DNA of 25,966 nt from a virus (IMGVR_UViG_3300025313_000396:1-25966); one strand, 5' to 3'. Counted from the first letter of the stretch, positions 3,203 to 22,470 are shown. The notes: generated from the sequence alone by a model not told the origin. Numbers and translations are program-made.

Positions 3203-3221
3203 TTCTTACCTCCTCCTTTTT

Positions 3222-3236
3222 GTCCGCTCAGCGGAC
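3222..3236 (-). promoter_or_regulatory. Start-associated hairpin, copy 1
   Basis: GTCCGCTCAGCGGAC is a near-perfect palindrome (six pairs around a 3-nt loop). On the minus strand it reads AAAT, hairpin, then AAAAA and the AGGAGG of the gene starting at 3202; 19 bases separate hairpin and ATG. Related copies are at 14611-14625 and 22456-22470. Confidence 0.7.
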
Positions 3237-3238
3237 AT

Positions 3239-3790
3239 TTAAAATCTTATTAAGTAAAATGCATCTCCGTTAGACGGTGCAGTCGGGAGTGCGTTAATGG
3301 TAATTACCTTACCTGTAGAATACCCAGTAACCTTTTTAGGCCCACATCCGGCAGCCACACCGGTGATTGGCAACAAGAAACTATCTTTATAGAAATCCAA
3401 CGTAGACGACGATAGGTTAGTGGTAAATGACGTAGTTGTTGGTGCACCATCATTAATCATCCCATAAATACCATTTAACGTAAAGTGAGTAACAACTTTG
3501 CCAACAGCAGGGTCTTGGCTGTCTACTTCTATGGTATATTGACCCAATATAGGTAAGTTACTAATCCCTATAATTATTTCATAGTCACCGCCAATATTAC
3601 TTCTTTCAACTTTACGCCAGTCCGTATTCTCTACGAGTGTGACATTTGTTCCCACCGTATCAGTTATCTTAAGTAATGGTGTTAATCCACCCAATCCAAC
3701 GCCGCCTGCATCCAGAAAGCATCTATATACAACAGAAACTTCGTTAATTGTTACATCTTTAGTAATTGTGGGCTTAGATATTGTGCTCAC
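3239..3790 (-). CDS. Tail-fibre-like protein with Ig-like N-terminus and shared C-terminal beta module
   Basis: A 183-residue protein in two parts. Residues 10-105 look like an Ig/BppU-type beta sandwich (TINEVSVVYRCFLD; DYEIIIGISNLPILGQYTIEVD). Residues 117-183 form a compact module, TTTSFTTNLSS...FYKDSFLLPITG...KVTGYS...INALPTAPSNGDAFYLI. It is common at the ends of phage tail-fibre proteins and also appears, diverged, in two neighbours (6075-7826 and 4469-5125). No signal peptide. The start is GTG at 3790, chosen because it overlaps the previous stop as GTGA and has GGAGG six bases upstream. Likely a fibre or baseplate component; the exact partner is unknown. Confidence 0.6.
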   Translation of the reverse strand: MSTISKPTITKDVTINEVSVVYRCFLDAGGVGLGGLTPLLKITDTVGTNVTLVENTDWRKVERSNIGGDYEIIIGISNLPILGQYTIEVDSQDPAVGKVVTHFTLNGIYGMINDGAPTTTSFTTNLSSSTLDFYKDSFLLPITGVAAGCGPKKVTGYSTGKVITINALPTAPSNGDAFYLIRF

Positions 3791-4428
3791 ATCATCCCTC
3801 CTGCGTTAAGCATATCGCAATCATATATAGGCATAGATATCCCAGTTTTACTTGGTAGATAATTACTGTCTAACAAGGTGATCCTTGCAGATAGTCCCTG
3901 CATCATAAATCCAATATTACCATGTAATGTAACATTGTCATTAGATACACTGGCTACCTCTATATCGTCTATGTAAAACTTGATTCTCTCACCAACGCCG
4001 CTTATCTTTAATTTGTAATACTGGCTAGCTGAAAAACCGGAGACCGTTCCATTACTTAATGTTGAAGGTTCGCCGCTTGAATATCTTACCAAATACCATG
4101 CCCCATCACCACGGATACCCCCCTCATACCAATTGCCAGTTACCTTATCGCCACGGAATATTGCCCTTATAGTATCTGTGGTAGTAGCTGCGCCAGTCTT
4201 TCCAGTTACTTCAACATAGTAGTCAGAGCTTAACAATGTTTCCAAGCCTATTACCCTAAAATAGCTATTAAATTCTAGTCTAACTTCATCTGTAGCTGCA
4301 TCTACGATAAACCGTGTAACATCAAAATCAGCAGTTACTTCAGTGTCGTAACCAATACCGCTATCAGACGTATGGCTTTCCAACGGCGTATCAGAAGTCT
4401 TGGTAAATGTATCGTACTTAATTGACAT
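3787..4428 (-). CDS. Concanavalin/LamG-like lectin-fold phage protein
   Basis: A 213-residue protein with the layout of a concanavalin-like jelly roll. RLEFNSYFRVIG near residues 50-61 is followed by a YYVEV strand, WYLVRYSSGE, and the diagnostic YYKLKISGVGERIKFYIDDIEVASV at about 135-160, where a strand-turn-strand precedes a FYIDD or FYNDV motif. The last part of the 976-residue exported protein (7830-10760) has the equivalent YKFKIKKVGSTAYLFYND pattern. Such domains often bind glycans on tail fibres; binding here is inference. No signal peptide. The ribosome binding site just upstream of ATG 4428 is weak (GGGG about 12 bases away), and a 13-codon micro-ORF ends inside its first codons, so translation may depend on coupling. 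Confidence 0.6.
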   Translation of the reverse strand: MSIKYDTFTKTSDTPLESHTSDSGIGYDTEVTADFDVTRFIVDAATDEVRLEFNSYFRVIGLETLLSSDYYVEVTGKTGAATTTDTIRAIFRGDKVTGNWYEGGIRGDGAWYLVRYSSGEPSTLSNGTVSGFSASQYYKLKISGVGERIKFYIDDIEVASVSNDNVTLHGNIGFMMQGLSARITLLDSNYLPSKTGISMPIYDCDMLNAGGMM

Positions 4429-4459
4429 TCTTATTCAACCCCGAAACCATCTTCTTCAT
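4418..4459 (-). CDS. 13-codon micro-ORF coupling two genes
   Basis: MKKMVSGLNKNVN, started by ATG at 4459 with AAGGAGA seven bases upstream, which overlaps the stop codon of the preceding gene. Its TAA falls within codons 3-4 of the next gene (start 4428). The downstream gene's own ribosome binding site is weak, so the micro-ORF may deliver ribosomes to it by termination-reinitiation. A functional peptide is unlikely. Confidence 0.4.
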   Translation of the reverse strand: MKKMVSGLNKNVN

Positions 4460-4468
4460 AAAGTCTCC

Positions 4469-5125
4469 TTACCTCACTGTATCTATGTAAATATCACACA
4501 CATCATTAGCCGATAAAGCTGATGCAAACAAACCATTCAACGTAATCGTATCTGTAGATGGATTAAAACTTATAACTTTAAGAATTATTGCCCTGTTATC
4601 TACGGCTGTAGCATTCGGGCAGTTAACTATTCCACCGACATAATCCTTGTTGCTTGCCTCAGATAACCCTGTACTTGTTATGGTCGAAGTAGTCGCAGAA
4701 CTTACGGTAATTGATTTCAAAAGACCAACTTGGCTCATGGTTGCGCCTACCGCCTTAAACCCCTTCGGAGCCATTGCAATCAAGCCTAAGTGGTCTCCTT
4801 CTCCTTCAACCCATCCCATACACTCATCCTCAACAGCATTCGTGATCGCATCATTAGTACAAATGTAATAGTATCCGCCAACCGATGCCTCTATCGTATC
4901 CCCTGTTTCGTCAACTGTTGTTGTTGTAGAAGGACTCCCGCAGTTAGTTTTAATGACAAGATTAGAAAATGGTGTCACTATATCAAGACCTGTAGAAATA
5001 CCGTTGCCAAACTCGTCAAATATGCCTATTAAAAAACAGTTTGTTGTGCCGAGTTTCTTATCCAGCGCCTGAGCGGTGTAAGGCATAATACAAAGTAATA
5101 ATGCTATGACTATTTTACGTTTCAT
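4469..5125 (-). CDS. Exported phage protein with shared C-terminal beta module
   Basis: A 218-residue protein with a clear Sec signal peptide: MKRK, hydrophobic IVIALLLCIMPY, and TAQA with probable cleavage after residue 20. The mature part is cysteine-containing (C30, C62, C89, C102, C169, C210), fitting an oxidising periplasm. Residues 141-214 (TSTGLSEASNKDYV...DTITLNGLFASALSANDVCDIYI) match the outline of the fibre module seen at the end of 3239-3790. ATG at 5125 overlaps the previous stop as ATGA with GGAGG upstream. The last codons GTG AGG TAA carry the Shine-Dalgarno sequence for the following micro-ORF. The role is unknown; an exported relative of fibre proteins is what can be seen. 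Confidence 0.6.
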   Translation of the reverse strand: MKRKIVIALLLCIMPYTAQALDKKLGTTNCFLIGIFDEFGNGISTGLDIVTPFSNLVIKTNCGSPSTTTTVDETGDTIEASVGGYYYICTNDAITNAVEDECMGWVEGEGDHLGLIAMAPKGFKAVGATMSQVGLLKSITVSSATTSTITSTGLSEASNKDYVGGIVNCPNATAVDNRAIILKVISFNPSTDTITLNGLFASALSANDVCDIYIDTVR

Positions 5126-5550
5126 TGAAAACCTCCGTTAAATCCGCCTGTAGATTTATTCCTGTTCTTCCAATTAAAATGAATACTACTACCGTCAGAA
5201 CAATTATTAATATCACCTGACGCAATCAGTTTACTAACTTCATTGGAATATGCACTTTCGTTGGCAAACACATCGTATGCCGTAGCCGCAAAGTAATATG
5301 TAATGCCTGCCGTTAATCCTGTAACAATATGACAAAGCGTATACCCAACATTAACAGGAGAGCCGTAGACGCCAGTCGCAGTCCCTTGATATATATTGAA
5401 TCCTGCAAGGTCAGTAAGCGGAGTATCGTCAGTGCTTGTCGTTGGTGCATCCCATCTGAGAGATACACTTTCGGCTAATACAGGATTATCGAACATTAAC
5501 ATGCCCACGCAGATAATAACCGCCTGCCAAATCTTTTTGCTGACCTGCAT
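5122..5550 (-). CDS. Exported fibronectin type III domain protein
   Basis: A 142-residue protein. The first 26 residues are a signal peptide (MQVSKK, hydrophobic core, NPVLA) with cleavage expected before ESVSL. Residues about 28-110 are one FN3 domain: SLRWDAP, a GFNIYQGTATGVY strand pair, and LTAGITYYFAATAYDVFANESAYSNEV, the classic LxxxxxYYFxVxAxD pattern. A short Asn/Gly-rich tail follows with two Cys (C79 and C117 could pair). FN3 modules mediate surface or protein contacts in phage tails and secreted adhesins. ATG at 5550 has AGGGGA seven bases upstream. The gene begins inside the last 55 bases of the sigma-like gene, so the two are translationally linked. Confidence 0.65.
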   Translation of the reverse strand: MQVSKKIWQAVIICVGMLMFDNPVLAESVSLRWDAPTTSTDDTPLTDLAGFNIYQGTATGVYGSPVNVGYTLCHIVTGLTAGITYYFAATAYDVFANESAYSNEVSKLIASGDINNCSDGSSIHFNWKNRNKSTGGFNGGFQ

Positions 5551-6023
5551 ATATTTCCCCTATCTGAATTTATTATTTCTGCAAGCTCTTTAAAACTATA
5601 TCCAACATATAATAAAATTATAATACTAAGTATCCTTGTTAAATCCTTAAACGTAGACCCCCTGTATCCTTTCATCCTTGCCACCTGCCATATGTCCATG
5701 AATAAAATTCTTTCTTGTATAGAATAATCAAGATCAGACCTTATGTCTCGCTCGTTTATCGAAGTTTCCAAGTACCCTGTCTTACTCGTATGGTATCTTT
5801 TTCTTAAATATTTTATCATTCCCTGAAAAGCATACTTTGGAATACGAGACTTAAATGTATTGTTATCAACGATTGCGTTTCTATATTCACACAGGATATT
5901 CAGGTAAGCCTCCTGCATCAAATCTTCTTTGTTGTGGCTGTTATTTTCAGAAAACCGTCTATTGTAAATGTAAATTACAGCCCGTTCTGAATATTCCATC
6001 AATTCTATTTCTGATAGCTTCAT
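5496..6023 (-). CDS. Sigma-70-like transcription factor (region 2 + region 4)
   Basis: A 175-residue protein with the two signatures of a small sigma factor. Residues 34-76 resemble region 2: DLMQEAYLNILCEY (region 2.2-like helix for core RNA polymerase), then FKSRIPKYAFQGMIKYLRKR (region 2.3/2.4-like). Residues 136-170 resemble the region 4 helix-turn-helix: LLYVGYSFKELAEI, NSDRGNICRSAKRFGRRLL. An acidic linker (SINERDIRSDLDYSIQERI) separates them, as in ECF/SigF-like factors. If functional it would direct host RNA polymerase to particular promoters, as phage late sigma factors do. It sits between exported-protein genes, an unusual place for a regulator. ATG at 6023 has GGAAGG upstream, overlapped by the stop of a 21-codon micro-ORF. 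It could instead be a non-sigma DNA-binding protein of similar fold. Confidence 0.6.
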   Translation of the reverse strand: MKLSEIELMEYSERAVIYIYNRRFSENNSHNKEDLMQEAYLNILCEYRNAIVDNNTFKSRIPKYAFQGMIKYLRKRYHTSKTGYLETSINERDIRSDLDYSIQERILFMDIWQVARMKGYRGSTFKDLTRILSIIILLYVGYSFKELAEIINSDRGNICRSAKRFGRRLLSAWAC

Positions 6024-6024
6024 A

Positions 6025-6090
6025 CTACCTTCCTTTTATAAATCCCTTCTGTACTGTATCTATCCAGTCCTCTGCTACCTTATATAGCAT
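6025..6090 (-). CDS. 21-codon micro-ORF bridging fibre and sigma-like genes
   Basis: MLYKVAEDWIDTVQKGFIKGR, starting at ATG 6090 within the last codons of the fibre gene (another frame). Its TAG (6025-6027) lies inside the ribosome binding site of the sigma-like gene, two bases from its ATG. The full use of the 51-base gap suggests a real coupling ORF, but its own Shine-Dalgarno (GAGCGG) is weak. Confidence 0.4.
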   Translation of the reverse strand: MLYKVAEDWIDTVQKGFIKGR

Positions 6091-7826
6091 GTTCCGCTCA
6101 ATGCCCCTGTAAATGGATTACCCGGTTCAACCGTTATAGTATCTGCCGTATTGTTGTCAGTTGCCGCTATAAATCTTTCCTGTTTACCGCAGCGTAATGT
6201 CTGTTTCTTGAATTGGTTATCAACAGTAATTATGGTTGTCTCCGTAATCACCAGCGGACTTGCCGGTGTCGCTGCCCCTGAGCTTACTGTGACCGCTATG
6301 CAGCCCTCGCAGTAACCTGTGCCGTCATAGGCTGCCTCAAGTGCATCTGCTGCTACCGTGTCGCCTGATATCTGGGCCATGTTTGCATTAACCACATTTG
6401 TAACTGACCCTACATTGGCAATATTAGCGCCCGAAGTATGACTGTCTACTGAATCCATGCTGCGCCAATCACTGCCTTTTACCTCACCTTGATTATTATA
6501 AATTAGGTATGTGACAGTACCAGAAGGAGTATATGTCCAATTAGGACTAATTTGAGCAATCTTAGTGGAACCATCATAATCCCAAATGTATCTTAATTGA
6601 CCAACCCCGGAAGACCCACCCGTAATCAGTAGTAGTTTTCCACTATAGACATCAAAGGCTGATGATTCTCCTGCGGCTAATGTAATACTGGAGGATGTCG
6701 CTGTTTGTGCTGTACCAGTGCTTGCTACCAGATAAGCGTCTACACTGGTCTGACTTGCCCTTGAACTTATGGTGGCATCAAGATTAGAGGCTGTAAGTCC
6801 AGTCACGCTCCCCGCCGAGCCAGATAGGTTGCCTTGAATGTCTGCTACTATATCATTTGTACCAGACGATCCTACTATCGTAAGCCCGTTTCCAGAAACT
6901 CCACCTTGTATCACAGAACCTGCCCCAGTACCATTCCCCGTTGCCGATATAGCAGGCTGATTCACCGTTGATCTTGCCACGACAAGGCCATCACTCATGG
7001 TTGTAGTGCCAGTGACGGTTAATGCTCCCAATGTTGTTGTACCGGAATTACTGCCGGAGATTAGTAAACCCCCTGCCGCACCCGCAGTGGCTGATGGCAG
7101 GAAATCAGTTTTGGTCTTAATCCCATCAATCTCATCATCTTTATCCGTAACTACTGCCGAACCCATGATATAGTTTGTGGGGAGTTTATCGTCTATGGCC
7201 TTGATCCTCTCGTTTACACTATCAGCGGTCGGTGATGCTGGTATGGCAGTATTTAACGCTGTATCCACTTCAGCGTTAACATCTGCCGCTGATAAGTCGT
7301 TAAAACCAGTTACACCAGTACCCTTTGCCAGAGCTATATTTGTTCCTGCTGTCAAGACCCTTGCAGCAGTACCCCAGACCTTGTCTGCTCCGGCTTGGGT
7401 GATGCCGACATCGTTTGTTATGTTTGTTACTGTAGGTACTGTGCCACTAACCGTATTACTATCTACCTCTGCTTCAATTTGCAAAGCTAAAGTAATTGAC
7501 AGACCTGTCTCTGGACATATCGCCCTTATCATATAACTCTTCCCTTTTTCAGCCCATGAGTCAAGAAGAAGTGCCTCTGAATAGAATCCATCCGTATTAC
7601 TGCTGTCGAGTAATGCCATAGTGCCGGATACTACAGGAGTCGCTGTTTCATCCTCATATACCCTGTATGTAATAGCGGAACCGCAATCTACTGCGCCTGA
7701 TGAGCCGTTATTTTGAACATAGAATGTGCATGTATCGCCTACCTTCCACGAACCGTTCTCACAGGTTGCATAGGCTTGTGAGGCTATCGCAAGAATAATA
7801 AATATTGTTAAGATAAGTTTTCTCAT
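6075..7826 (-). CDS. Exported tail-fibre-like protein
   Basis: About 583 residues. An N-terminal signal peptide (MRKLILTIFIILAIASQAYA, cleaved before TCENG) is followed by a Cys-bearing beta domain to about residue 118. From about 120 to 330 come repeat-rich segments typical of phage fibres: DVNAEVDTALNTAIP then SVNERIKAIDDKLP, GALTVTGTTTMSDGLVV (T4 gp12-like beta unit), and GNLSGSAGSVTGLTASNLDATISSR. Residues about 375-442 hold the shared beta module (SSSITLAAGESSAFDVY...LRYIWDYDGS...VTYLIYN), and the last 55 residues may be a second, shorter copy. Start ATG 7826 rather than the upstream TTG, since GAGGT lies five bases before it. It probably forms a trimeric fibre, but the Sec signal is unusual for a virion protein assembled in the cytoplasm. 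Confidence 0.65.
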   Translation of the reverse strand: MRKLILTIFIILAIASQAYATCENGSWKVGDTCTFYVQNNGSSGAVDCGSAITYRVYEDETATPVVSGTMALLDSSNTDGFYSEALLLDSWAEKGKSYMIRAICPETGLSITLALQIEAEVDSNTVSGTVPTVTNITNDVGITQAGADKVWGTAARVLTAGTNIALAKGTGVTGFNDLSAADVNAEVDTALNTAIPASPTADSVNERIKAIDDKLPTNYIMGSAVVTDKDDEIDGIKTKTDFLPSATAGAAGGLLISGSNSGTTTLGALTVTGTTTMSDGLVVARSTVNQPAISATGNGTGAGSVIQGGVSGNGLTIVGSSGTNDIVADIQGNLSGSAGSVTGLTASNLDATISSRASQTSVDAYLVASTGTAQTATSSSITLAAGESSAFDVYSGKLLLITGGSSGVGQLRYIWDYDGSTKIAQISPNWTYTPSGTVTYLIYNNQGEVKGSDWRSMDSVDSHTSGANIANVGSVTNVVNANMAQISGDTVAADALEAAYDGTGYCEGCIAVTVSSGAATPASPLVITETTIITVDNQFKKQTLRCGKQERFIAATDNNTADTITVEPGNPFTGALSGTCYIR

Positions 7827-7829
7827 CAA

Positions 7830-10760: not shown

Positions 10761-10818
10761 CAATCCCTCCAAATTAATTGGACTCTGGGCTATATGCCTC
10801 TGGTCTTACATAAAACTA

Positions 10819-10950
10819 TTACTTCTTGAGATATTGTGATTCTAATTCCTTAACCCTATCTATTAACTTATCTATTTGCTCAAATATTAGTATAACAGTT
10901 ATTATTCCTACCGCCATTAGAAATACTATGGCTACTCCTGTTTCCGACAT
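10819..10950 (-). CDS. 43-residue membrane protein with one TM helix
   Basis: MSETGVAIVFLMAVGIITVILIF is an N-terminal transmembrane helix (residues 5-23), followed by a charged amphipathic segment, EQIDKLIDRVKELESQYLKK, with coiled-coil spacing. ATG 10950 has GGAGG six bases upstream and lies inside the end of the Com-like gene (19-base overlap). As the last gene of the lysis cassette it could be a spanin-like or antiholin-like component, or a small holin; no family is recognised. Length, topology and RBS make it a credible gene. Confidence 0.6.
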   Translation of the reverse strand: MSETGVAIVFLMAVGIITVILIFEQIDKLIDRVKELESQYLKK

Positions 10951-11102
10951 TCTACACCTCCTGTGTTCTGGGTTAATTTACCTCTGACATCTTCAGATAG
11001 TTCAATAATATGTAATCGCTTACAACGACGACAAAATAGTTCAACTCCGTCATCTGTTAACCTTGCTATCATATTACCACACTCACAGCGTATATCACTC
11101 AA
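10932..11102 (-). CDS. Com-like zinc-finger protein
   Basis: A 56-residue protein, MSDIRCECGN...ELFCRRCKRLHIIEL, with C6-x-C8 and C24-x2-C27. This is the pattern of phage Mu Com, a zinc-finger protein that activates translation of the mom DNA-modification gene by binding its mRNA. The IRCxCG, about 15 residues, FCxRCKRxxxI layout matches well. No mom-like gene is visible in the window, so the RNA target, if any, is unknown. The start is TTG at 11102: AGGAGG lies six bases upstream and the codon overlaps the preceding TGA. Distal residues 35-56 are unlike Com and overlap the next gene. Assignment is by motif and length. Confidence 0.6.
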   Translation of the reverse strand: MSDIRCECGNMIARLTDDGVELFCRRCKRLHIIELSEDVRGKLTQNTGGVECRKQE

Positions 11103-11251
11103 TTCATCCCTCCTGTCGCAATCCTCAACACAGATACCATCTGCCTCATCATCTCATCCTGCCCCTTGCCGACCCATAGGGAGCCAATTATAAAGCCTGC
11201 AATGAGACCGGCAATTAAGCCTTGAACGTGCTTGTTAAGTAGTAAAATCAT
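11099..11251 (-). CDS. 50-residue single-TM lysis-cassette protein
   Basis: MILLLNKHVQGLIAGLIAGFIIGSLWVG gives one glycine-rich transmembrane helix at about residues 8-27, followed by a methionine-rich cytoplasmic or periplasmic tail (QDEMMRQMVSVLRIATGG). ATG 11251 overlaps the endolysin stop as ATGA. The next gene's AGGAGG lies within its final codons. Position directly after an endolysin suggests a role in lysis (i-spanin-like, pinholin-like), but no lipobox or spanin motif is visible. Confidence 0.55.
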   Translation of the reverse strand: MILLLNKHVQGLIAGLIAGFIIGSLWVGKGQDEMMRQMVSVLRIATGGMN

Positions 11252-11655
11252 GGCAGTAAGTAGAAATACTCTCCTTTGCTGACTTCACGCCAGAGTTGCG
11301 CAACATCCCTACTATCAAGATGCCAGCCTCCCCTGAAATCCTTGTACTTCCAGTCAGGGTATACGCCGATACCAGCAAAGCCTGAGATCCGGATATACTC
11401 CCATTGCTGCCTGATATTCATGTCAGAGCAGATAATAATATCAACAGCCTTACCCTTGTAATGATATGAACCTGAAGAGTGTCCCTGTGAATCGTAGCCA
11501 GCAGTGATGATAATCGGGCAGGCTACCCAGCCTCTGAGAGAGTCAAGCCTGTGGACAGTCTCCATATCCATGTCCTTACCGAGATTAATTTTGTGCCTGT
11601 CGTCAAACTCCTCGGCCTTGAACCATTTAATATTTTCCCACGTTAACATTGACAT
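11248..11655 (-). CDS. Peptidase M15 family endolysin (D-Ala-D-Ala carboxypeptidase-like)
   Basis: A 135-residue protein of the M15 (M15_3-like) zinc peptidase family, which cleaves peptidoglycan peptide cross-links or stems. Visible family marks: EF near residue 17, ITAGYDSQGHSSGSYH, the zinc motif H65-x6-D72 in SYHYKGKAVDI, and the third ligand H112 in GGWHLD. Length is typical of a single catalytic domain with no wall-binding module, as in phages of Gram-negative hosts. No signal peptide, so it needs a holin for access; a holin-like gene lies upstream at 13618-13905. Start taken at ATG 11655 (ATG 11649 is also possible). An HNH-AP2 gene has been inserted immediately upstream, and its leader repeats the MLTWE start of this protein. 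Confidence 0.85.
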   Translation of the reverse strand: MSMLTWENIKWFKAEEFDDRHKINLGKDMDMETVHRLDSLRGWVACPIIITAGYDSQGHSSGSYHYKGKAVDIIICSDMNIRQQWEYIRISGFAGIGVYPDWKYKDFRGGWHLDSRDVAQLWREVSKGEYFYLLP

Positions 11656-11687
11656 TTGAAATCCTTACCTTGCATTATTTTTATATA

Positions 11688-12203: not shown

Positions 12204-12253
12204 TTCCCCTCTTTCCCAAGTAAGCATATCTGATCCCGTTATCCCTCCTGACA
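12204..12253 (-). other. Possible remnant of the original endolysin start upstream of the HNH gene
   Basis: In frame with the HNH gene, this segment has an AGGAGG sequence and an ATG (12227) that encodes MLTWE, the same five residues that begin the real endolysin (residues 3-7). The two stretches differ at three synonymous positions, so the DNA copies are diverged although the peptide is identical. Confidence 0.45.
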
Positions 12254-13385: not shown

Positions 13386-13618
13386 AAATGTTTCCACCCT
13401 ATCTTCAGTAAAGCGCCTAAAGCCAGTAACCCAAGTACACCCAGTACGATTGCTTTAATAATCGTATGCCAAATAGTTTTTGACATATCATCACTCCACT
13501 TCATCCACTTATCTATAAATTTGTGATGTTCGTAGTGGAGTTCCCTTTCAACCCAAAATGGAGCAAGTTTTTCATCTATGGCTTCAATGACGGCGGACTT
13601 GAGTTCTTCCTTTGTCAC
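13382..13618 (-). CDS. Small membrane protein, possible second holin/antiholin
   Basis: A 78-residue protein with a soluble helical N-terminus (KEELKSAVIEAIDEKLAPFWVERELHYEHHKFIDKWMKW) and a C-terminal TM helix, IIKAIVLGVLGLLALGALL, ending in WKHL. The FWVEREXHYxxHxF stretch resembles short proteins often encoded beside phage holins. GTG at 13618 overlaps the holin stop (TAGTG), suggesting coupled expression. A C-tail-anchored partner of the holin is plausible; not proven. Confidence 0.6.
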   Translation of the reverse strand: MTKEELKSAVIEAIDEKLAPFWVERELHYEHHKFIDKWMKWSDDMSKTIWHTIIKAIVLGVLGLLALGALLKIGWKHL

Positions 13619-13905
13619 TATTTACTACCAATGGCATGTTTTGCAGTTACACGCCCGTATATTGCGAGAATGAACCCAAATAACTGAGCCAATAAGTTCG
13701 CTATCACTATCAACCTATCAACTAAGCCTACTTGCTCAATATCGGAAATACTCACAACTCCTGTCATCTGTAACCCTGTAGCTATTATCGCAATCAAGAG
13801 ACCCCACAGGGTCTTACTTAACCACCATTGTTTTGTATTCATAAACCGACTCCTCCCTATATACTTGACGATTTGCGAGACTAACCATGCGTCAAAATTT
13901 GTCAT
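13618..13905 (-). CDS. Two-TM holin
   Basis: A 95-residue protein with two hydrophobic helices (about 33-51, LWGLLIAIIATGLQMTGVV; 66-84, IVIANLLAQLFGFILAIYG) joined by a short acidic loop (SISDIEQ). The SKTLWGLLIA and LAIYGRVTA marks are typical of a common phage holin type, which permeabilises the inner membrane at a set time so the endolysin can reach peptidoglycan. Two starts are possible. ATG 13905 overlaps the previous stop (ATGA). ATG 13842 (MNTKQWWLSKT) has GGGAGGAG nine bases upstream, giving a 74-residue form. Part of the gene is exactly duplicated in inverse orientation at bases 1-109. Confidence 0.8.
   Translation of the reverse strand: MTNFDAWLVSQIVKYIGRSRFMNTKQWWLSKTLWGLLIAIIATGLQMTGVVSISDIEQVGLVDRLIVIANLLAQLFGFILAIYGRVTAKHAIGSK
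13628..13736 (-). repeat. Inverted repeat, copy B (within holin gene)
   Basis: This is the partner of bases 1-109, in opposite orientation and 109/109 identical. It covers the second transmembrane segment of the holin up to the last few codons. Because it sits in an intact gene in its expected context, this copy is probably the original one. Confidence 0.95.
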
Positions 13906-14093
13906 TCATAACTCTTAACGAAACTCACAGGATTGCCTGCAAGTTCTTCCAGTTTCTCCATCGCTTCCACTAAGTTATCGAATACGAATGATGCTGTCGT
14001 ATAGAACCGTTCTTGTTTGACCCATTCGTACTGCTTAATTAACCAACCGTTGTCGCAAGGCATCAGGTTGAAATAATAATCTTGTGGATTCAT
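13902..14093 (-). CDS. Small hypothetical protein
   Basis: A 63-residue protein, MNPQDYYFNLMPCDNGWLI..., mixed alpha/beta, ending in a helix (NLVEAMEKLEELAGN). GAGGT lies four bases before ATG 14093, and its end overlaps the holin start as ATGA. Not recognised. Confidence 0.55.
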   Translation of the reverse strand: MNPQDYYFNLMPCDNGWLIKQYEWVKQERFYTTASFVFDNLVEAMEKLEELAGNPVSFVKSYE

Positions 14094-14174
14094 GTGACCT
14101 CATATACTCCCCCCCCGCCCATCTTACTTGACGCATCTCCGTAAGACACTCCTTTCTGACAGACGGGGGAACTG
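14094..14174 (-). other. Structured, G-rich spacer
   Basis: Read on the minus strand, CCCCCGTCT at its beginning can pair with AGATGGGCGGGGG near its end. An inner TCTTAC/GTAAGA stem also forms, and the spacer includes a run of eight G (14109-14116). No convincing gene is present. It may be an mRNA structure ahead of the lysis cassette. Confidence 0.35.
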
Positions 14175-14591
14175 TTATCTTATTACCTGTATCAATGTCA
14201 GATAAACCGACATATCCCCTTCAAACTTGCCTTCATGGGTCAGGGTGTTCATATCTACAAGACCTGAAACGCCAATGGAAGTATTGAGGGAATTTAAAAG
14301 CCACACACCGCCAAACCTTTTGGCTACTTCAGAGATGTTTATACCAGCTCCAATGCCTACATAGTCGGAAACATCAGATACATCCATAGGCTTTGCATAA
14401 ACGCCCCTGATACCCACAGTGTCCAGTATTGACATAACATCAACACCGCCGCCAAAGGCAAGACCCTTGCCGAATATGTAATGAGTATCGCCGCCAAGAT
14501 TAAATGTCTCCATCTGAAATGTGTCTGCGGCCATTGCAGATACTGACATTACCAATACTGCGAATAGTGCTACGATAAGGTTTTTAAACAT
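14175..14591 (-). CDS. Exported beta-rich protein of unknown function
   Basis: A 138-residue protein with an evident signal peptide (MFKNLIVALFAVLVMSVSAMA, cleaved before ADTF). The mature 117 residues alternate hydrophobic and polar positions with many Gly (YIFGKGLAFGGGVDV, YVGIGAGINISEVA, TSIGVSGLVDM, GDMSVYLTLIQVIR), which could suit a small outer-membrane barrel or a beta sandwich; no aromatic C-terminal residue is present. AAGGAGG precedes ATG 14591, and a start-associated hairpin lies 19 bases upstream. It is placed between the tail-tip genes and the lysis cassette. A surface-modifying or superinfection-related role is only speculation. Confidence 0.6.
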   Translation of the reverse strand: MFKNLIVALFAVLVMSVSAMAADTFQMETFNLGGDTHYIFGKGLAFGGGVDVMSILDTVGIRGVYAKPMDVSDVSDYVGIGAGINISEVAKRFGGVWLLNSLNTSIGVSGLVDMNTLTHEGKFEGDMSVYLTLIQVIR

Positions 14592-14610
14592 TTAATGCCT
14601 CCTTGATTTT

Positions 14611-14625
14611 GTCCACCGAGTGGAC
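14611..14625 (-). promoter_or_regulatory. Start-associated hairpin, copy 2
   Basis: GTCCACCGAGTGGAC: six pairs around a 3-nt loop. Relative to copy 1, the C:G pair next to the loop changes at both sides (GC..GC to AC..GT), keeping the stem. On the minus strand it is flanked by AAAT and AAAAT and lies 19 bases before ATG 14591. Confidence 0.7.
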
Positions 14626-14688
14626 ATTTATACACCTATAATCAGACATTTGTTCACTAATTTACATAACATGTTGATTACGCTGATT

Positions 14689-14880
14689 TTATTGACATTT
14701 ATTGATTAGCGTCACTTCAGTTTGAAGCATTGCCAATATTCTCCTTGCTTCTGATATTGCACCAAGAATCTCTGCATAGCCCATCTCTACCTGCTTTCTC
14801 TGTGTGTCAAGTTGCTGGATTCTTTCTTCAAGTTGTTCTGTAAGACTTTTTGGTTTTATTTCTGGTGTATCTTCTGTAAT
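14689..14880 (-). CDS. 63-residue coiled-coil protein with apparent ATT start
   Basis: This fills the gap after the tip gene. AAGGAGG is followed by seven bases and then a frame beginning ATT ACA GAA: (M)TEDTPEIKPKSLTEQLEER..., ending LINKCQ. After a charged start the protein is a long amphipathic helix (SLTEQLEERIQQLD, QVEMGYAEILGAISEARRI) with heptad spacing. No ATG, GTG or TTG lies at a sensible distance from the strong Shine-Dalgarno, so the start is either ATT, rare but known for infC, or an ATG spoiled by a base error. Function unknown; a small tail-tip or lysis accessory factor is possible. Confidence 0.6.
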   Translation of the reverse strand: MTEDTPEIKPKSLTEQLEERIQQLDTQRKQVEMGYAEILGAISEARRILAMLQTEVTLINKCQ

Positions 14881-14955
14881 TTTAAATCCTCCTTGTTATT
14901 GATTTATTTGCATTTTATTATAATCCAACATGAAGATGAGATATATGTTTTCTCC

Positions 14956-17900
14956 TTATGGCACTATTGCAAAGAAATTGAAATCACGGTCATATCTTGT
15001 ACCTGTATAACTTACAATATTAGCAACAAATGACCCTGCAACAACAGATGTAGCTGCATATATTTCGGTAAGATATTCGCCAGTTAGCAAAATAACGGGG
15101 ACAGAAGCAAGTGCATTATCAAATGTTATTGTATAGTTTCCAGCACTGTTCCTATAGGCTGAAAACCCTATCCCCCTGAGTATTGTACAAGCACCATTAG
15201 TGCTACGACTTTGAACTGTCCCGAAAACGCCGTAAGCTATTTGACGATAAGTAGTACCATCTAGTATACTTCTGCCCCAGTAGTCAGTAGATCCCATTCT
15301 AACATCTATTGTACCGCCAGATGCTTCTACACCAATTGATGTACCTCCTGCACTAGACGCATAAAATCGCCCACCAGTGCCCATAGTATTTGGCCTAATA
15401 TTGACTACCTGTCCCCATACTCCATGTGTCTCCTTGGTGGATGTTGTTCTATTAGTAGCATTAACATAGGAATGCATTCCTTGATAGCTACCAGGATCAT
15501 CGTTCGGGATACGACTCAAGTCAAAAAAGGACCAGTCTGATCCAGATTCGTCTCCAATACTTGCTACAGGGATTGTATTGCTTACTAATACATCAAACCA
15601 CCGTGCTTCTTTAGTGTCAAATGACAATTCAATCCTGTCATTACCCGATGCCGCCGTCCGTATCGTATTCCCTGTGATTATTCCACCGGCAGTAATATTG
15701 TCTGCATCTAAGTTAATAACACTGATAACGCTAGCATCTATTATTCCAGCAGTAATGAAATCGGCATTAATTAATATTGTCTGTAAATAACCTCCACTTA
15801 CTATCGTACTTCCTAATTTGGATAATTCAACAACATCTTCTAAAGCCATACCGCCCAGAATAGGTTGGTCGGTGATATCGCTATTCCATGTTGCACCTAC
15901 TGTAGCATTGTCAGCAGGCTTGTTAGTGCCACCTACATTTTCCCAATTATTACTTGTAAGCGGCATAAATCTTACATTTTTAAGTTGACTATTAGGGGTA
16001 TAAAAAGATGAATCAAAATAAAATTTAAGGTTGGCAACTACGCTGGTCGTTGCTATAACAGCACCATTTTTATACCATCTAATAGTGCTTCCATCATACG
16101 ATACTGCTAAAATATCATTAGTTAAATATAAACCAATTGGACCGCCGTCAGTTCCCGATATATACCTACGCAATGTACCATCATTGACACAATACATAGC
16201 ATAATCAATGCTTGAATAACTACTATCAGTTATTGGGTCACTATTTAATCCAAACATTATATTAGCAGTATTTTGATTAGGGACAGCAATCACATATGCG
16301 CCATATGTATAACTTTCCGCACTATAGCAATCTGAATCCCAATCAAAAACTCCACCAACTTTTGTAATAATTTTATCACTAGTCACTATACAGTTTGCTC
16401 TAGCAATAAGCGTAGCATCTGGTGTGGGTGTATCAGATAAATTATCATATCCAGACCCACCAGTTATTGTCATTGACCCTTTAATTTCAAGGGATGAACC
16501 ATTCCATTCAAGATAATTATCAATATCACCCAATTCAAACTTAATCTTATCTGCATCATTATAATCAAACCCATAAATGAATCCAGCGGTATTGTCAGCA
16601 AAGTCAGTTTTACCACCCCTTACCACACAATCACCAGCGCCAGTCCTTACCAATGTTATTATCTTTGCATCTATACTTCCAGACGTTAATTTACCAACAG
16701 ATAAATTAGTTATATGTGCATCCTGAACAGCAAGTAACTGTATATAAGCAGACCCTATTACTTCATTAGCTATGGCGTTCCAAGCTAAATCGTGTGCTCC
16801 GCCTACATTTGTAGCTATAATAAATTGACCATCCATCAAAGGTAATGGCGAAACCGAATCACTGTCTGTAGGATTTTTAGCAATAGAAATATAAGATGAA
16901 TTATAAGAGCCATCTTGTTGCAATATTCCCGTCCCATCCCAATAAACGTATTTATGTGTCGTTAGTGATGTCTGCCCCCCCGCAATATTATATTTTTTAC
17001 CATCATAATAAAGTTGATGATTAATCCATGAAATATGGCCAGCGGATGGAGAATTATTTGTCCAAGAATCGCCTTCTAAAATAGGTATCTTCGTGAATAT
17101 CTTAGATGATGTTATTGCAAAGTCATTTATGTCTGTTGATTGGATATTAAGTCCTTGAGAAATCCCCTGAACAGTCAAGCTCTGATTGCCCTCACCAAAC
17201 GTGTCTACGGCTTTAATATAATAATTATACTGAACGCCTTCACTTCCATAATGCCCGTAACTTGGATGTGCTACAAAGGCAACCTTAACGGTATCAACAT
17301 AAACATTATAGCCAATTAAGTCCGTATCTGTTACTGCTGTCCACGATAAGTAGACGAATTCCATAAAGTTAGAAGCATTAAGTCCTGCCGGTGCTGATGG
17401 GGCAGAATTGGAACCGGATGTATTTTGTGCACTTTCCTGATTAAGTAAGTCTATGGCTTTAACTGTGAAATATAATAATCTAATTGGCGTTCCACCATTA
17501 TCCGACTTATTGCTTTCATATGTATAATTATAATTCGGGTCTTGTGTACTCTCATTCCTCAATAGAACTGTCCTATTGCTATCAGAATAAACAAATACCT
17601 TATATTCTTTTAAGTCATTGTCATATAGCGGTGTCCAGCTAAGTCTACAATCCTTGCCTGTAAAATCAACGGTAATAGCACCTAAACTTGGGGCTGTATT
17701 ACTCATAGCCTGTGAACCAGCCGTAGCTGAATAATTCCCTGATGTATCGCGTGCCTTTATGTAAAATGTATACGATGCTTGAGTAGGATTTTGTAAGGTG
17801 AACTTATCGCCAAGACCTTGATAAATAAGATTGGAATCAACAGTTCCCCAATTGGCATTATTGAGCCGTATCTCATAAAAACTTATATCTCTATCGGCTA

Positions 17901-20900
17901 TTGGCGTCCATGTAAGAACCACCGTATTCCCAAATGTAGCTCCTGAAAACGACACATTAGATGGCAATGAAACCTTGCCCTGTATAGTAATATCTGCCTT
18001 GCTTGCATCTACTATAGACTGAGCTATACCATATAAGCTAACCGATACAATAGCTACCTTGTAGGTCAATTTACTTAAATTCTCTATAATAAAACTACTT
18101 CTAGCTTCACCCTTATACTCCCAAAAGGCTCCTGCACTGTCAGATAGGTATATTTTAGCCCTATCATATTCTGAGGCGTTCTGTGTTGAATTCATAAATG
18201 GGACTGCATCGCCTGTAGATGAAATAGTATTTAATAGCACTTGGTCAGCAGGTATAGGTATGTTGACCTGACGTTTTTCTTGACCAAGTGTAGTCCCAAC
18301 ATAAACCCCCGCATGAGTTACATTCATCGGGAATTGCGGTACAGTAATTGTCATTTCGCTTGTGGAGCCAGTCGTAACTATGGAAACATAATCAGAGGCT
18401 AATGTTTCACCACCTTCACCTATCCATGTATATTTACAATAATATGTTCCCGCGGGTATAGACCCACCAGTTTCAGTTACAGTTACTATAGGTAAAATAG
18501 AAGGGTTATCAACAATTGTTGGCGGGTTCCAAGATATAAGAATCGTATTAATCTTGGTACCGTCACCAGGGTCTATAGTTAATTCTTTAAGTGTTAAATC
18601 AGTGACAGAATCGGGTATTTGCAAGGGGTTTTTAAGGCTCGAATACTTTATTACCTCTACAGCATCACCAGTATCTGAATATATTGAAGCGTTGTCCTCT
18701 ATGGCAGTTATTTGCCTTTCCTGAATACCATCCCTATTTATTGACAGAATCCTATATGGCTTTGTAACGCTGCCTGACTCCCCGAAGGTATATATACCAT
18801 CAACGGGAGGAACAGAAGTGAAATTTGAGGTCATTACGAGCGAATACGGGGGTATGCTATTGGTATTATGAACTGTTCTTTCTTCTATCGTATCATCGGT
18901 TAACATTACCCTGACTTTATAGGTCTTTCCAGTATCTATACTTATTGGTGTATCTATGGTAATTGAATTTATAGTTGATGCCTTAATCCTACCTGACGCA
19001 AGTCCGTATGCAAGGACATCGTGAGAGAAATCTATTACATCTCCTGCCTCGCAAGCTATAGCATCAAGTCCAGCCTTAAATTGTATACTCTCTTTAATGT
19101 ATTTAGATTGATTTAAGAAGAACCTACCCATCCTAACAGCCTGAGAACGTCTCGTGATACCTATTAAATTGAATGTCTGAGCACGCTCCATTCCGCCAAG
19201 TGGCACATCGTAAATCATCACTTCACTTAATCGAGCATTTGCATCATTTCTATCAGGGTAGGTTATCTTGGCCACATTAAATCTATCTGTAGCAGAAGTG
19301 TAGTTTATTGAAAGGGAATTCTCTATAATATTCCCCATAGTAAATAACTGAACAGAATTTTCTGCTTTATTAATCTTTATCTTAAACTGATTCTCTGCCC
19401 ATACAGCAAATCCCCTGAACGTAGACAGGATTCTTTCTATAACATTACGTGCATCATCCTGTGAATCTATAACTATGTCTAATTGGAATCTCTTTTCGGT
19501 TCCACCTTGACCATTATCTACCTTGGTATCACAATATTTAGCCAATAGCCTTAAGTCTGTATCGTTTAAGGTAGATTGAAAATAAGATTTTAAGCCGTAA
19601 TGGTCATTATTTATCAGGTCTCTTAGGCACCAGATTGGGTTATCTGTCCATTGAGATACAAACAATGAAGCATCCGTACATACAGTTCCGGCAGCATTGC
19701 CATTCCATTCAGCATCTAACACGTAATTAGACCCATTCCAATAAGTTAAATAATATGGTACGGTCACACTACTTATTGTCAATTTAGGGACTTCAACTAA
19801 TTTGCCTTCAATTTCAAATAAAGCATTTGGGATTGTACCCGACGATTGCTCATTAGCTTGAATCCTTAAATAGGCCATAGCTGTATTTGGATAATTATGT
19901 GATTCAGATACATATTCCTGTAGTCCAACCCACCATACATCACCAAATGTTGCCACGCTATCTGGATTTGCTGAAGTCTTCACAACCTTGACTTCGTATT
20001 GACCTTCAGCTACATCTAATCTTATAGATTGCTTGAATGGATTGTTGTTTTTAATCTTTATTGTCTTGGTCTTAGGAATCCATGTGCTGTCACCAACTTT
20101 CCTATAACTAACTGTCAAATCTACCTGCCATGTAGAAAATTTGCCATCGGTTATTTGATATAATCCACCGGGAAATGACAATACTAATATCAGTGCATTA
20201 ATGTCTTGATTTTGCGTTGTAACTACTAATGGAGATGAATCATTAGATATGGCATTATAGGCTACGGCATTTTGCGTAACAACATTATCAAATATAGGAT
20301 TAGCTACTTGATAATTTGAGCCTAGGGTATAATCAAATACATAATAATCGTGCCCGTAATTATTAAGAGGATTATTATTTAATCTAATCTTTCCTTGGTC
20401 TATTGATTTTATTTCACCCTCAGATAATGCAAATGTCAAATATTGGACATCTTTATGCCCAACAACATTTTCTGTATCTTGTGAATTCTCATGGGCTGAA
20501 TAGATGATATCATAATGCTGTGCTACCTTAATTACATCTATTGAACCTTGCGTAAAACCACCTTGCGGAATAATCGCCTCTATCTTTATATCGTATTGCT
20601 TATTATATAAATTCCTTTCAGGATTAATTATTGTCACTTCACTTTTTCGTGAATAAGTGAATTTATCCCCGGCTACAATCCAGCTTGGGCCTCCAGTTAC
20701 CTTGTAAGATATTTTATAATAAACAGAGTATTGAGTTCCCCATTCATCGGGTAGGACGAAGTAATATGACTTTAATTTGATTTTAATGCCACGTGATACG
20801 TTGTCAGTTCTTATAATATTTTCGTAATTGTTCCACGGTTCATCTATTTTAGATGGAGTTATTACCTCCCACTTTGTGGCGTAGATATTAACCGTGTCAG

Positions 20901-21228
20901 TCCAAGCATTGATTATATTGCCACCAACCGTTACCCGGCCATAACACAATGGGACTGGTAGAGATACATCAGAAACAGTCTGCGGACCATCCCATGAATA
21001 GGTAGGTGAACCAGCCAATGCACTATCGCCGATAGCGCCAAATGCCTTCTTAAAGGCTTTCATGGCTTGTCTTTGCTGGTATTTACCTTCCTGAAAACCA
21101 GTGATAGCTGAACCAGCTAGTACAGCGAGCATCCCTAATTTACCTAGTGCAAAGGCACCAAATCCAGAAGCAACAGCTGCAATAGTTAATATCGTAGACG
21201 CCCAACCCCAGCCACTCTTTTTAGCCAT
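14956..21228 (-). CDS. Tail tip / host-specificity protein (J-like) with FN3 domains
   Basis: 2090 residues. The first 45 are small and hydrophobic (ILTIAAVASGFGAFALGKLGMLAVLAGSA), as in many TipJ-type proteins. LPVPLCYGRVTVGGNI at about 90 and LSEGEIKSIDQGKIRLNN near 270 are tip-attachment marks. Beta domains reach about 870, then FN3-like domains at about 870-1370 (PSNVSFSGATFGNTVVLTWTP, GKDCRLSWTPL, EFVYLSWTAVTDTDLIGYNVYV). Next comes a central-fibre stretch (IDAKIITLVRTGAGD...WNGSSLEIKGS, about 1500-1600), a lectin-like insert (about 1600-1760, IGLYLTNDILAVSYDG, IRWYKNGAV), NKPADNATVGATWN, and a C-terminal fibre region ending NFFAIVP. It caps the tail and contacts the receptor. ATG 21228 overlaps the NlpC/P60 gene by 8 bases. 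Confidence 0.85.
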   Translation of the reverse strand: MAKKSGWGWASTILTIAAVASGFGAFALGKLGMLAVLAGSAITGFQEGKYQQRQAMKAFKKAFGAIGDSALAGSPTYSWDGPQTVSDVSLPVPLCYGRVTVGGNIINAWTDTVNIYATKWEVITPSKIDEPWNNYENIIRTDNVSRGIKIKLKSYYFVLPDEWGTQYSVYYKISYKVTGGPSWIVAGDKFTYSRKSEVTIINPERNLYNKQYDIKIEAIIPQGGFTQGSIDVIKVAQHYDIIYSAHENSQDTENVVGHKDVQYLTFALSEGEIKSIDQGKIRLNNNPLNNYGHDYYVFDYTLGSNYQVANPIFDNVVTQNAVAYNAISNDSSPLVVTTQNQDINALILVLSFPGGLYQITDGKFSTWQVDLTVSYRKVGDSTWIPKTKTIKIKNNNPFKQSIRLDVAEGQYEVKVVKTSANPDSVATFGDVWWVGLQEYVSESHNYPNTAMAYLRIQANEQSSGTIPNALFEIEGKLVEVPKLTISSVTVPYYLTYWNGSNYVLDAEWNGNAAGTVCTDASLFVSQWTDNPIWCLRDLINNDHYGLKSYFQSTLNDTDLRLLAKYCDTKVDNGQGGTEKRFQLDIVIDSQDDARNVIERILSTFRGFAVWAENQFKIKINKAENSVQLFTMGNIIENSLSINYTSATDRFNVAKITYPDRNDANARLSEVMIYDVPLGGMERAQTFNLIGITRRSQAVRMGRFFLNQSKYIKESIQFKAGLDAIACEAGDVIDFSHDVLAYGLASGRIKASTINSITIDTPISIDTGKTYKVRVMLTDDTIEERTVHNTNSIPPYSLVMTSNFTSVPPVDGIYTFGESGSVTKPYRILSINRDGIQERQITAIEDNASIYSDTGDAVEVIKYSSLKNPLQIPDSVTDLTLKELTIDPGDGTKINTILISWNPPTIVDNPSILPIVTVTETGGSIPAGTYYCKYTWIGEGGETLASDYVSIVTTGSTSEMTITVPQFPMNVTHAGVYVGTTLGQEKRQVNIPIPADQVLLNTISSTGDAVPFMNSTQNASEYDRAKIYLSDSAGAFWEYKGEARSSFIIENLSKLTYKVAIVSVSLYGIAQSIVDASKADITIQGKVSLPSNVSFSGATFGNTVVLTWTPIADRDISFYEIRLNNANWGTVDSNLIYQGLGDKFTLQNPTQASYTFYIKARDTSGNYSATAGSQAMSNTAPSLGAITVDFTGKDCRLSWTPLYDNDLKEYKVFVYSDSNRTVLLRNESTQDPNYNYTYESNKSDNGGTPIRLLYFTVKAIDLLNQESAQNTSGSNSAPSAPAGLNASNFMEFVYLSWTAVTDTDLIGYNVYVDTVKVAFVAHPSYGHYGSEGVQYNYYIKAVDTFGEGNQSLTVQGISQGLNIQSTDINDFAITSSKIFTKIPILEGDSWTNNSPSAGHISWINHQLYYDGKKYNIAGGQTSLTTHKYVYWDGTGILQQDGSYNSSYISIAKNPTDSDSVSPLPLMDGQFIIATNVGGAHDLAWNAIANEVIGSAYIQLLAVQDAHITNLSVGKLTSGSIDAKIITLVRTGAGDCVVRGGKTDFADNTAGFIYGFDYNDADKIKFELGDIDNYLEWNGSSLEIKGSMTITGGSGYDNLSDTPTPDATLIARANCIVTSDKIITKVGGVFDWDSDCYSAESYTYGAYVIAVPNQNTANIMFGLNSDPITDSSYSSIDYAMYCVNDGTLRRYISGTDGGPIGLYLTNDILAVSYDGSTIRWYKNGAVIATTSVVANLKFYFDSSFYTPNSQLKNVRFMPLTSNNWENVGGTNKPADNATVGATWNSDITDQPILGGMALEDVVELSKLGSTIVSGGYLQTILINADFITAGIIDASVISVINLDADNITAGGIITGNTIRTAASGNDRIELSFDTKEARWFDVLVSNTIPVASIGDESGSDWSFFDLSRIPNDDPGSYQGMHSYVNATNRTTSTKETHGVWGQVVNIRPNTMGTGGRFYASSAGGTSIGVEASGGTIDVRMGSTDYWGRSILDGTTYRQIAYGVFGTVQSRSTNGACTILRGIGFSAYRNSAGNYTITFDNALASVPVILLTGEYLTEIYAATSVVAGSFVANIVSYTGTRYDRDFNFFAIVP

Positions 21229-21604
21229 GTCTTAAAACACCTCGATATCTTCGCTCTAGATACTTATTGTTATATTTTGAAATAATTACGCCGGTTGTGT
21301 CCAAAAAATGGAATATCTCGTTGTTGCCGATATATAACCCTACGTGGTCTATACCCTGACCATGAAAGTCATATAGGAGTATGTCGTTTAATTCGGGTTC
21401 TTTATTTGTAATTGTCCATTCAGTAAGGAATCGGCAATTACCCATGTCGGGAAATGGTATATATTTGACATTGCATACAAACCTTAGTAGGCTTATGCAA
21501 TCAAAATCTTTTCTGCCTATCAAGCTATAAATAATATCTGCCCCCGATACCAACACCTGGGAATGCCCCCCAACGCACTCTATTGTTATGATTCTCGCAT
21601 CCAT
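21221..21604 (-). CDS. NlpC/P60-type tail-tip peptidase (K-like)
   Basis: Up to 127 residues. Catalytic Cys is C36 in KDFDCISLLRF, and the histidine is H87 in GQGIDHVGLYIGNNEIFHF, preceded by NDILLYDF, the standard papain-like NlpC/P60 order Cys, then xDxxLxxxxxxxxHVGxYxG. Tail-associated members hydrolyse peptidoglycan peptides during DNA injection. It lies between the L-like and J-like genes exactly as in lambda (K) and gene transfer agents. The start is uncertain: ATG 21604 gives an 80-base overlap with the L-like gene and has no clear ribosome binding site. A start nearer the L-like stop (for example TTG just after it) would leave only about 12 residues before Cys36. Confidence 0.75.
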   Translation of the reverse strand: MDARIITIECVGGHSQVLVSGADIIYSLIGRKDFDCISLLRFVCNVKYIPFPDMGNCRFLTEWTITNKEPELNDILLYDFHGQGIDHVGLYIGNNEIFHFLDTTGVIISKYNNKYLERRYRGVLRHG

Positions 21605-22445
21605 TAGAACTAGATAATGTTAAATCACACGTAGTCAGGCTACCTCCACCCGTTACCGTCTTAGCCCAAAGCCTTTTAAGTGCAGTCTTCCCTTCATATT
21701 TACACAATGCTATCCACGGTTCATGAACGCCCCATTCTGTGCTATGTCTTAACTCTAATTGTGACTTAGATAGCAATGTTGTACTGCCCTGCACATAGAC
21801 TATGTAAATAGGGTCTCCGATAAACTGAGCGTTGCCAGACGTTATGTTTACATTTTGCAAAAGAATGGGGTCGTATATTGTCACTCCCCCCCAAGCTACA
21901 TAATCAGCAGAAGGACTATTTGCCGTAAACACTACATCAGCATATCCCGTGGCAAACCCACACTGAATTGATTTAAACCTGAATTGACATACGCCTTTAG
22001 AATATGTCCTCTTGGGGATTATTACATCAGCCCTACTCAGGATATTTACTAATGTGAATACGGCAGCTTCTTGTGTTACAGAGATATTAGATATGTAAAA
22101 AGTATCCCCTACGTAAGCATTTGAATCGCCTAAATTGTTAGCGAATACCTCCAACATGTCCACACGAACGTCAATTAATTCTTCACCTTGAATAATAGCG
22201 ATTATGTCTCTATTGGCAGAGCCTATCGTAATTGATACGGAAGCTATTTCACCCTTAGAGTTCTCCGAGATTGGTGAACTGGATATCGGGACTGCTACAT
22301 ATGTTTGGCCACCGAAAACCACGTTCTCGCTATACTCGGCATAATATAAAGATGTGGCAGTATATATTTTGAATAGCCTAATAACTTGGGCCGATTCAAG
22401 TTTGTTCTTCTCTGTCCTGTAATTAGTAACTAAGTTTCGTGACAT
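21525..22445 (-). CDS. Minor tail protein L-like (DUF2163 / tail-tip cysteine protein)
   Basis: 306 residues. FKIYTATSLYYAEYSENVVFGGQTYVAVPIS (25-55) and SVSITIGSANRDIIAII are features of L/DUF2163-type tip proteins: an anchor domain that recites the analyte slot, then beta domains. C153 and C162 (CQFRFKSIQC) pair in the sequence with C273 and C283 (TTCDLTLSSSNGCENHNN). A further C248 is present, and RWGAFPGVG follows, matching the GFPG end of the family. In lambda gpL four C-terminal cysteines bind a 4Fe-4S cluster. A 50-70 residue beta insert (170-230) separates the pairs here. ATG 22445 lies 10 bases after a start-associated hairpin. The ribosome binding site is weak (no clear GGAGG). Confidence 0.75.
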   Translation of the reverse strand: MSRNLVTNYRTEKNKLESAQVIRLFKIYTATSLYYAEYSENVVFGGQTYVAVPISSSPISENSKGEIASVSITIGSANRDIIAIIQGEELIDVRVDMLEVFANNLGDSNAYVGDTFYISNISVTQEAAVFTLVNILSRADVIIPKRTYSKGVCQFRFKSIQCGFATGYADVVFTANSPSADYVAWGGVTIYDPILLQNVNITSGNAQFIGDPIYIVYVQGSTTLLSKSQLELRHSTEWGVHEPWIALCKYEGKTALKRLWAKTVTGGGSLTTCDLTLSSSNGCENHNNRVRWGAFPGVGIGGRYYL

Positions 22446-22455
22446 AATTTATTTT

Positions 22456-22470
22456 GTCCACTGAGTGGAC
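22456..22470 (-). promoter_or_regulatory. Start-associated hairpin, copy 3
   Basis: GTCCACTGAGTGGAC, six pairs around a 3-nt loop (seven with a one-base centre). Minus-strand flanks AAAAT and AAAAT match the other copies. It lies 10 bases before ATG 22445 and directly after the stop of the DUF2460-like gene. Confidence 0.7.

Follow-up and report, generated by a model that had tools for sequence, protein, structure and literature searches.

A start-associated palindromic element repeated in the late region of a siphovirus-like phage

Recovered from an environmental metagenome, the stretch of DNA analysed here (25,966 nt, referred to below as the window) represents the late region of a tailed, siphovirus-like phage. 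It carries three copies of a 23-base palindromic element, each positioned shortly upstream of an ATG start codon. The element is a real repeated signal and is probably an expression-control element. The best explanation, to be held tentatively, is a sense-strand RNA hairpin predicted to insulate the ribosome-binding site of the following gene within the late operon. An earlier note on this DNA had described the three copies as start-associated hairpins; its observation was confirmed, and its interpretation is supported in part.

Sequence and repetition of the element

An exact-pattern scan of the window with AAATGTCC[G/A]C-NNN-G[C/T]GGACAAAA returned three matches, all on the coding (minus) strand. 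The three 15-mers that the earlier note had presented as one element in one orientation were all found at their coordinates, with strand and flanks as described, and the distances it gave from the element to the downstream ATG (19, 19 and 10 nt for copies 1, 2 and 3, preceding ORFs 2444-3202, 14175-14591 and 21525-22445, respectively) are correct. The copies are as follows:

Copy 1, 3218-3240, minus strand: AAAT-GTCCGC-TGA-GCGGAC-AAAA (read 3240-3218, AAATGTCCGCTGAGCGGACAAAA), with its 17-bp dyad at 3221-3237; it fills the gap that separates the TAA stop of ORF 3239-3790 from the GGAGGAGG belonging to ORF 2444-3202.
Copy 2, 14607-14629, minus strand: AAAT-GTCCAC-TCG-GTGGAC-AAAA (read 14629-14607, AAATGTCCACTCGGTGGACAAAA); located upstream of the AAGGAGG and ATG of ORF 14175-14591, 60 nt past a likely ATT-initiated ORF, 14880-14689.
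Copy 3, 22452-22474, minus strand: AAAT-GTCCAC-TCA-GTGGAC-AAAA (read 22474-22452, AAATGTCCACTCAGTGGACAAAA); it fills the gap that separates the TAA stop of ORF 22474-23070 from the ATG that opens ORF 21525-22445.

In copies 1 and 3, the TAA stop codon of the upstream gene coincides with or overlaps the start of the element. Twenty of the 23 columns are identical across the three copies, variation being confined to one stem pair and the loop, and outside the 23-nt block nothing is conserved except the letters of the ribosome-binding site and start. The full palindrome extends over 17 bp, TGTCC[G/A]CT-N-[A/G]G[C/T]GGACA (TGTCCRCTNAGYGGACA), its symmetry running into the loop with a single exception, a T·G in copy 2.

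Against a weight matrix the three copies score 27-29 bits, while the next-best site in the window, the copies' own reverse complements aside, reaches 5.6 bits and the top site over ten Markov-shuffled windows 7.1 bits. The whole window holds no fourth copy, nor any degenerate copy above the shuffled background, and the further copies in the genome that the earlier note had envisaged are absent from these 26 kb. That note had also proposed a comparison of palindrome frequency with shuffled sequence, and the repeated palindrome does exceed the shuffles: at least three similar palindromes with 6-base arms are present in the real window and in one of 20 shuffles. Perfect 7-bp inverted repeats as a class (24, against a shuffle mean of 19.6) show no excess. 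It is the repetition of the palindrome, and not the abundance of palindromes, that is non-random. Two separately assembled contigs of the same phage, from other metagenome samples, also contain the element: copy 2 recurs in L008 (99.98% identity, 5.65 kb) and copy 3 in L005 (98.2% identity, 6.7 kb), all differences between L005 and the window falling within 21,000-22,000 and none near the element. Given the shuffle scores and these independent contigs, the repeat is neither a chance occurrence nor an assembly error.

Genomic setting

All long genes of the phage lie on the minus strand. In that direction, a 950-aa ORF is followed by a gene with a weak DUF2460 match, the tail protein L/hub, an NlpC/P60 protein, the central tail fibre J, a cluster of short genes including that of an exported protein, an HNH/AP2 endonuclease, a peptidase M15-type endolysin, and finally large lectin-like and fibre-region genes. 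The genes adjoining the three copies are:

2444-3202, minus strand, downstream of copy 1: 252 aa, no PHROGs or Pfam family.
3239-3790, minus strand, upstream of copy 1: a 183-aa product without a known family; the stop codon of the gene overlaps the element.
14175-14591, minus strand, downstream of copy 2: a 138-aa exported protein carrying a signal peptide.
21525-22445, minus strand, downstream of copy 3: 306 aa, Phage_tail_L/tail hub family.
22474-23070, minus strand, upstream of copy 3: a tail-tip gene whose 198-aa product matches DUF2460 weakly; the stop codon of the gene overlaps the element.

Copy 1 is situated in the gene run beyond the tail-tip and lysis genes, and copy 3 between the DUF2460 gene and the tail protein L/hub gene, both of which are tail-tip genes. 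With copy 3 lying amid the tail-tip genes, the copies are not markers of module borders; the suggestion that the three genes open three modules was thus too strong, being at best a loose description and failing for copy 3.

Three further features of the window were recorded. A probable gene of 63 codons at 14689-14880 (minus strand), with an AAGGAGG and ATT as its only start (ITEDTPEIKPKSLTEQLEERIQQL...), is overlooked by ORF calling with ATG, GTG and TTG starts. A 175-aa ORF of the late region, 5496-6023 (minus strand), gave a weak match to a phage sigma factor (phrog_1740, E 2.9e-05) and no match in a Pfam search, and is possibly, judging by this similarity, a late-gene transcription factor. 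Lastly, bases 1-109 are a perfect inverted copy of 13628-13736, where ORF 13618-13905 ends, and are joined to sequence for the C-terminal portion of an HNH/AP2 endonuclease (window 1-434); bases 1-131, junction included, recur at the end of contig L008 (5542-5672), and the junction may be a real variant (an endonuclease insertion allele) or an assembly junction common to both contigs.

Relatives of the phage and its genes

The earlier note had looked to relatives with the same genes for the presence of the element, an expectation that was not borne out. Nineteen viral contigs encode homologues of gene 2444-3202 (39-55% identity); their leaders are ordinary and the palindrome is absent from them, and the element is likewise absent from L165 and L166, relatives of the same phage region with 83-91% nucleotide identity over shared genes. 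In a third relative, L129 (~81-92% identity), the sequence stops short of every element. No diverged relative reached via the three genes beside the copies and two more genes keeps the element. As it is missing before them, the homologous genes of the relatives do not need it.

The neighbourhood of copy 2 is mosaic. The first 69 nt (23 codons) of gene 14175-14591 are common to L165 and L166 at 94% identity (window 14524-14592; L165 1025-1093; L166 1972-2040), whereas neither the DNA ahead of the gene nor the mature protein is related, a pattern that has the appearance of a signal-peptide or cassette swap. Such a mosaic, in which the element is absent from L165 and L166 alike, together with its absence from other viruses' homologues of gene 2444-3202, is what would be seen if the copies were scars left near gene starts by earlier exchange or duplication, i.e., a linker or a small mobile palindrome that plays no part in expression today. 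This origin is nonetheless unlikely: 20 of the 23 element letters have been kept while all flank similarity has been lost, which suggests selection; the homology with L165 and L166 breaks at the ATG rather than at the element; and neither a transposase nor a terminal duplication is seen.

Predicted fold and base-pair change

The element is predicted to fold as a 7-bp stem with a 3-nt loop, with bare-hairpin energies of -8.3, -6.8 and -6.8 kcal/mol for copies 1, 2 and 3, and leaders of ~60 nt are predicted to be modestly more stable than their shuffles (z = -1.9, -1.9 and -3.0). For copies 1 and 2 the Shine-Dalgarno sequence is predicted to be single-stranded, 4-8 nt downstream of the stem; copy 3 has a 10-nt gap without a Shine-Dalgarno sequence. 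A translational switch in which the hairpin hides the Shine-Dalgarno sequence, one of the roles raised in the earlier note, is not predicted, as the site is outside the stem and is left free. A search of Rfam with the window returned no family above the gathering score.

Intrinsic termination on the gene strand was rejected, the stem there being followed by AAAA with the T-run absent. A terminator acting on the antisense strand, which would stop transcription running against the late operon, is very improbable: each stem has ATTT(T) after it when read on the plus strand, and a terminator scan lists copy 3 as terminator-like, likewise a copy in the unrelated phage L168, but the T-run comprises only 3-4 bases, the scan misses copies 1 and 2, and an opposing promoter or gene is not evident.

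The stem pair that is G-C in copy 1 and A-T in copies 2 and 3 has changed on both sides and still pairs, as had been claimed. The conclusion drawn from it, namely conservation of the fold and not of the letters, is not supported: most letters are identical and a single pair covaries in three copies. If two G and four A half-sites are spread randomly over three copies, the arms match in 1 of 5 cases, and the pair change is for this reason weak evidence; moreover, templated correction of quasi-palindromes keeps arms matched without selection. Homologues of the genes around the copies yielded no diverged orthologous copies of the element. With conserved letters and one two-sided pair, RNA pairing, a DNA dyad and templated palindrome repair are not separable. 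Within the triloop, the T-N-A/G symmetry is unneeded by an RNA hairpin, and this loop symmetry suggests a better fit to a DNA dyad bound by a dimeric protein.

Possible roles as a leader hairpin or a DNA-binding site

Several features of position point towards RNA. The sense orientation and the asymmetric A-rich flanks are the same in all three copies, copies 1 and 2 have 19 nt between GGAC and ATG where L168 has 18 nt, and a promoter scan around copies 1 to 3 gave no promoter-like excess. Orientation, flanks, distance from the ribosome-binding site, position after a stop codon and the lack of a promoter excess together favour a leader hairpin. Under this explanation, the element would be transcribed as a sense-strand hairpin, in the gap between stop codon and ribosome-binding site, on a long late-gene transcript; it would shield the following ribosome-binding site from the coding RNA ahead of it, and/or mark a processed or protected 5' end, and the three cistrons would thereby be expressed partly independently of their neighbours.

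The same leaders can be read as an upstream mini-ORF, ATG TCC RCT NNN YGG ACA AAA ... TAA, whose translating ribosomes would melt the hairpin and re-initiate at the gene. In each of the three copies it shares the frame of the gene start that follows, ending 3, 0 and 3 nt before that ATG, and the element itself begins on the stop codon of the preceding gene in copies 1 and 3. Little credence can be given to this possibility, as codons 3 to 5 vary in amino acid (A/T, E/R/Q, R/W) such that no peptide is conserved, TAA is frequent in A-rich leaders and would be in frame three times by chance in about 1 of 27 cases, and the ATG is absent from the copies in L168 and in a second unrelated phage, L173.

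The principal alternative to the leader hairpin, possible and close behind it, is a dispersed DNA site, composed of the 17-bp dyad with its central base, to which a dimeric regulator encoded by phage or host would bind. Such a site would act by blocking elongation in the late operon, in the manner of a stoperator or roadblock, or by shutting nearby promoters. Apart from the exception in copy 2, the symmetry of the dyad (TGTCCRCT-N-AGYGGACA) reaches the central base, and the copies occupy short gene gaps in one direction, as do the stoperators of phage L5 (PMC9283540). Outside the window phage the 17-bp dyad was found in five viral contigs. The unrelated 18-kb phage contig L173 has three copies, in as many consecutive gaps between genes. 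A single dyad occurs in L168, between a TTGAAA-17-TATAAT promoter, 18 bp upstream, and the AAGGAG of a ParB_N-family gene (leader GTCCACTCAGTGGAC-AAAATAAGGAG), its distance from stem to ATG being like that of copies 1 and 2. In L167 the match lies within coding sequence. In gene gaps of the GC-rich phage contig L171 (37-76 and 8200-8239), two-box palindromes, TGTCCGCTCAGTAGNCA-gccggc-TGTCCGCTCAGCGGACA, have a centre spacing of 23 bp and resemble tandem operators, and their position in gaps is likewise in keeping with a DNA site. At a contig end, L170 has 17-bp palindromic units (TGCCCACTGAGTGGACA) arrayed in tandem (4563-4637). Against a DNA site, the 26-kb window shows neither a regulator gene nor an operator-promoter pair, the sole transcription-factor-like ORF being 5496-6023 with its weak sigma-like match; an operator is not expected at a fixed distance from a ribosome-binding site; only three sites are present; and the word shared with other phages may be a coincidence.

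The same word in other genomes

When the variable pair was left free, TGTCCNCTNAGNGGACA was found in viruses outside the window phage in ~10 contigs with the middle position paired and in eight with it unpaired. Repetition within a contig was seen in three of the five R-Y contigs, in none of the eight unpaired contigs, and partially in one of the other paired contigs, these being few contigs with the L170 tandem array among them. The near-confinement of repetition to the R-Y version is suggestive of a reused word, or may be coincidental. It is unlikely, though conceivable, that TGTCCRCTNAGYGGACA serves many phages as a common control word, set in gene gaps by unrelated phages (the window phage, L173, L168 and perhaps L171) because a conserved host factor recognises it, either in DNA or in the nascent leader.

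In a collection of bacterial genomes, at least 120 stretches match the 23-mer pattern, nearly all of them in Oscillospiraceae/Clostridia. The match there is the middle hairpin of a longer dispersed multi-hairpin repeat, GGGAGATTCCCCTGTTAGGGG-AAATGTCCGCAAAGCGGACAAAA-GGGT..., and two contigs of the viral collection (L004 and L006) are this same repeat. It is a widespread family with many copies per genome (GGGAGATTCCCCTGTTAGGGGAAATGTCCGCNNNGCGGACAAAAGGGT...; L009-L128), and five loci tested gave no Rfam match. Only 2 of 123 copies lie within 60 nt of a downstream start. These matches were rejected as host or related copies of the phage element, having a longer repeat and other surroundings, and four matches outside this repeat (L054, L070, L082 and L125) look like chance. 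Like the phage element, the bacterial repeat holds the exact degenerate 23-mer including its flanks, AAATGTCCGC-NNN-GCGGACAAAA; unlike it, the repeat is a longer, multi-hairpin structure, with a CCCC..GGGG hairpin directly before, and is not start-associated. It is a different element with a common core.

Significance and comparison with known phage repeats

Late phage operons are usually regarded as being read through as a single unit. A repeated signal before chosen late genes would offer a means of setting their dose separately or of silencing them in a prophage, and should unrelated phages use one word via a host factor, this would hint at an unrecognised host control of phage late genes. 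A literature search for intergenic palindromes or intercistronic hairpins in phages found nothing.

Cluster K mycobacteriophages, cited as a precedent in the earlier note, provide a fair analogy, although the element does not belong with their repeats. The start-associated sequences (SAS) of this cluster are 13-bp and asymmetric (GGGATAGGAGCCC), with 11-19 copies at translation starts in the non-structural half only, and the accompanying ESAS are 17-bp imperfect repeats with a spacer of 4-13 bp (PMC3203893). Short dispersed repeats, mostly in one direction and at translation starts, are common to both systems, and the ESAS are likewise inverted repeats; the window instead has one perfect short palindrome in three symmetric copies, without a 13-bp partner, and in the structural/late half, where copy 3 is among tail-tip genes. 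The stoperators of Cluster A phages (L5, TipsytheTRex) are 13-bp asymmetric sites, more than 20 per genome, for a known monomeric repressor (PMC9283540). They resemble the element in being dispersed over short gene gaps with an orientation that follows transcription (three of three copies here), and they differ from its symmetric 17-bp dyad, present in three copies and with no known protein; no immunity repressor gene is seen in the 26-kb window. Oriented, mostly intergenic phage repeats are also represented by the 22-bp repeats of T1 and Stevie (16-20 copies, asymmetric; PMC4319613) and by the 26-bp repeats of Mordin (8 copies; PMC4611695), of which the latter precede translation starts, their sequences being unrelated to the element. 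By sequence or copy number, the element is outside all of these systems. It is ordinary in kind, resembling known phage gene-start repeats, and so far constitutes a further oriented, start-associated phage repeat comparable to those of Cluster K, T1-like and Felix O1-like phages.
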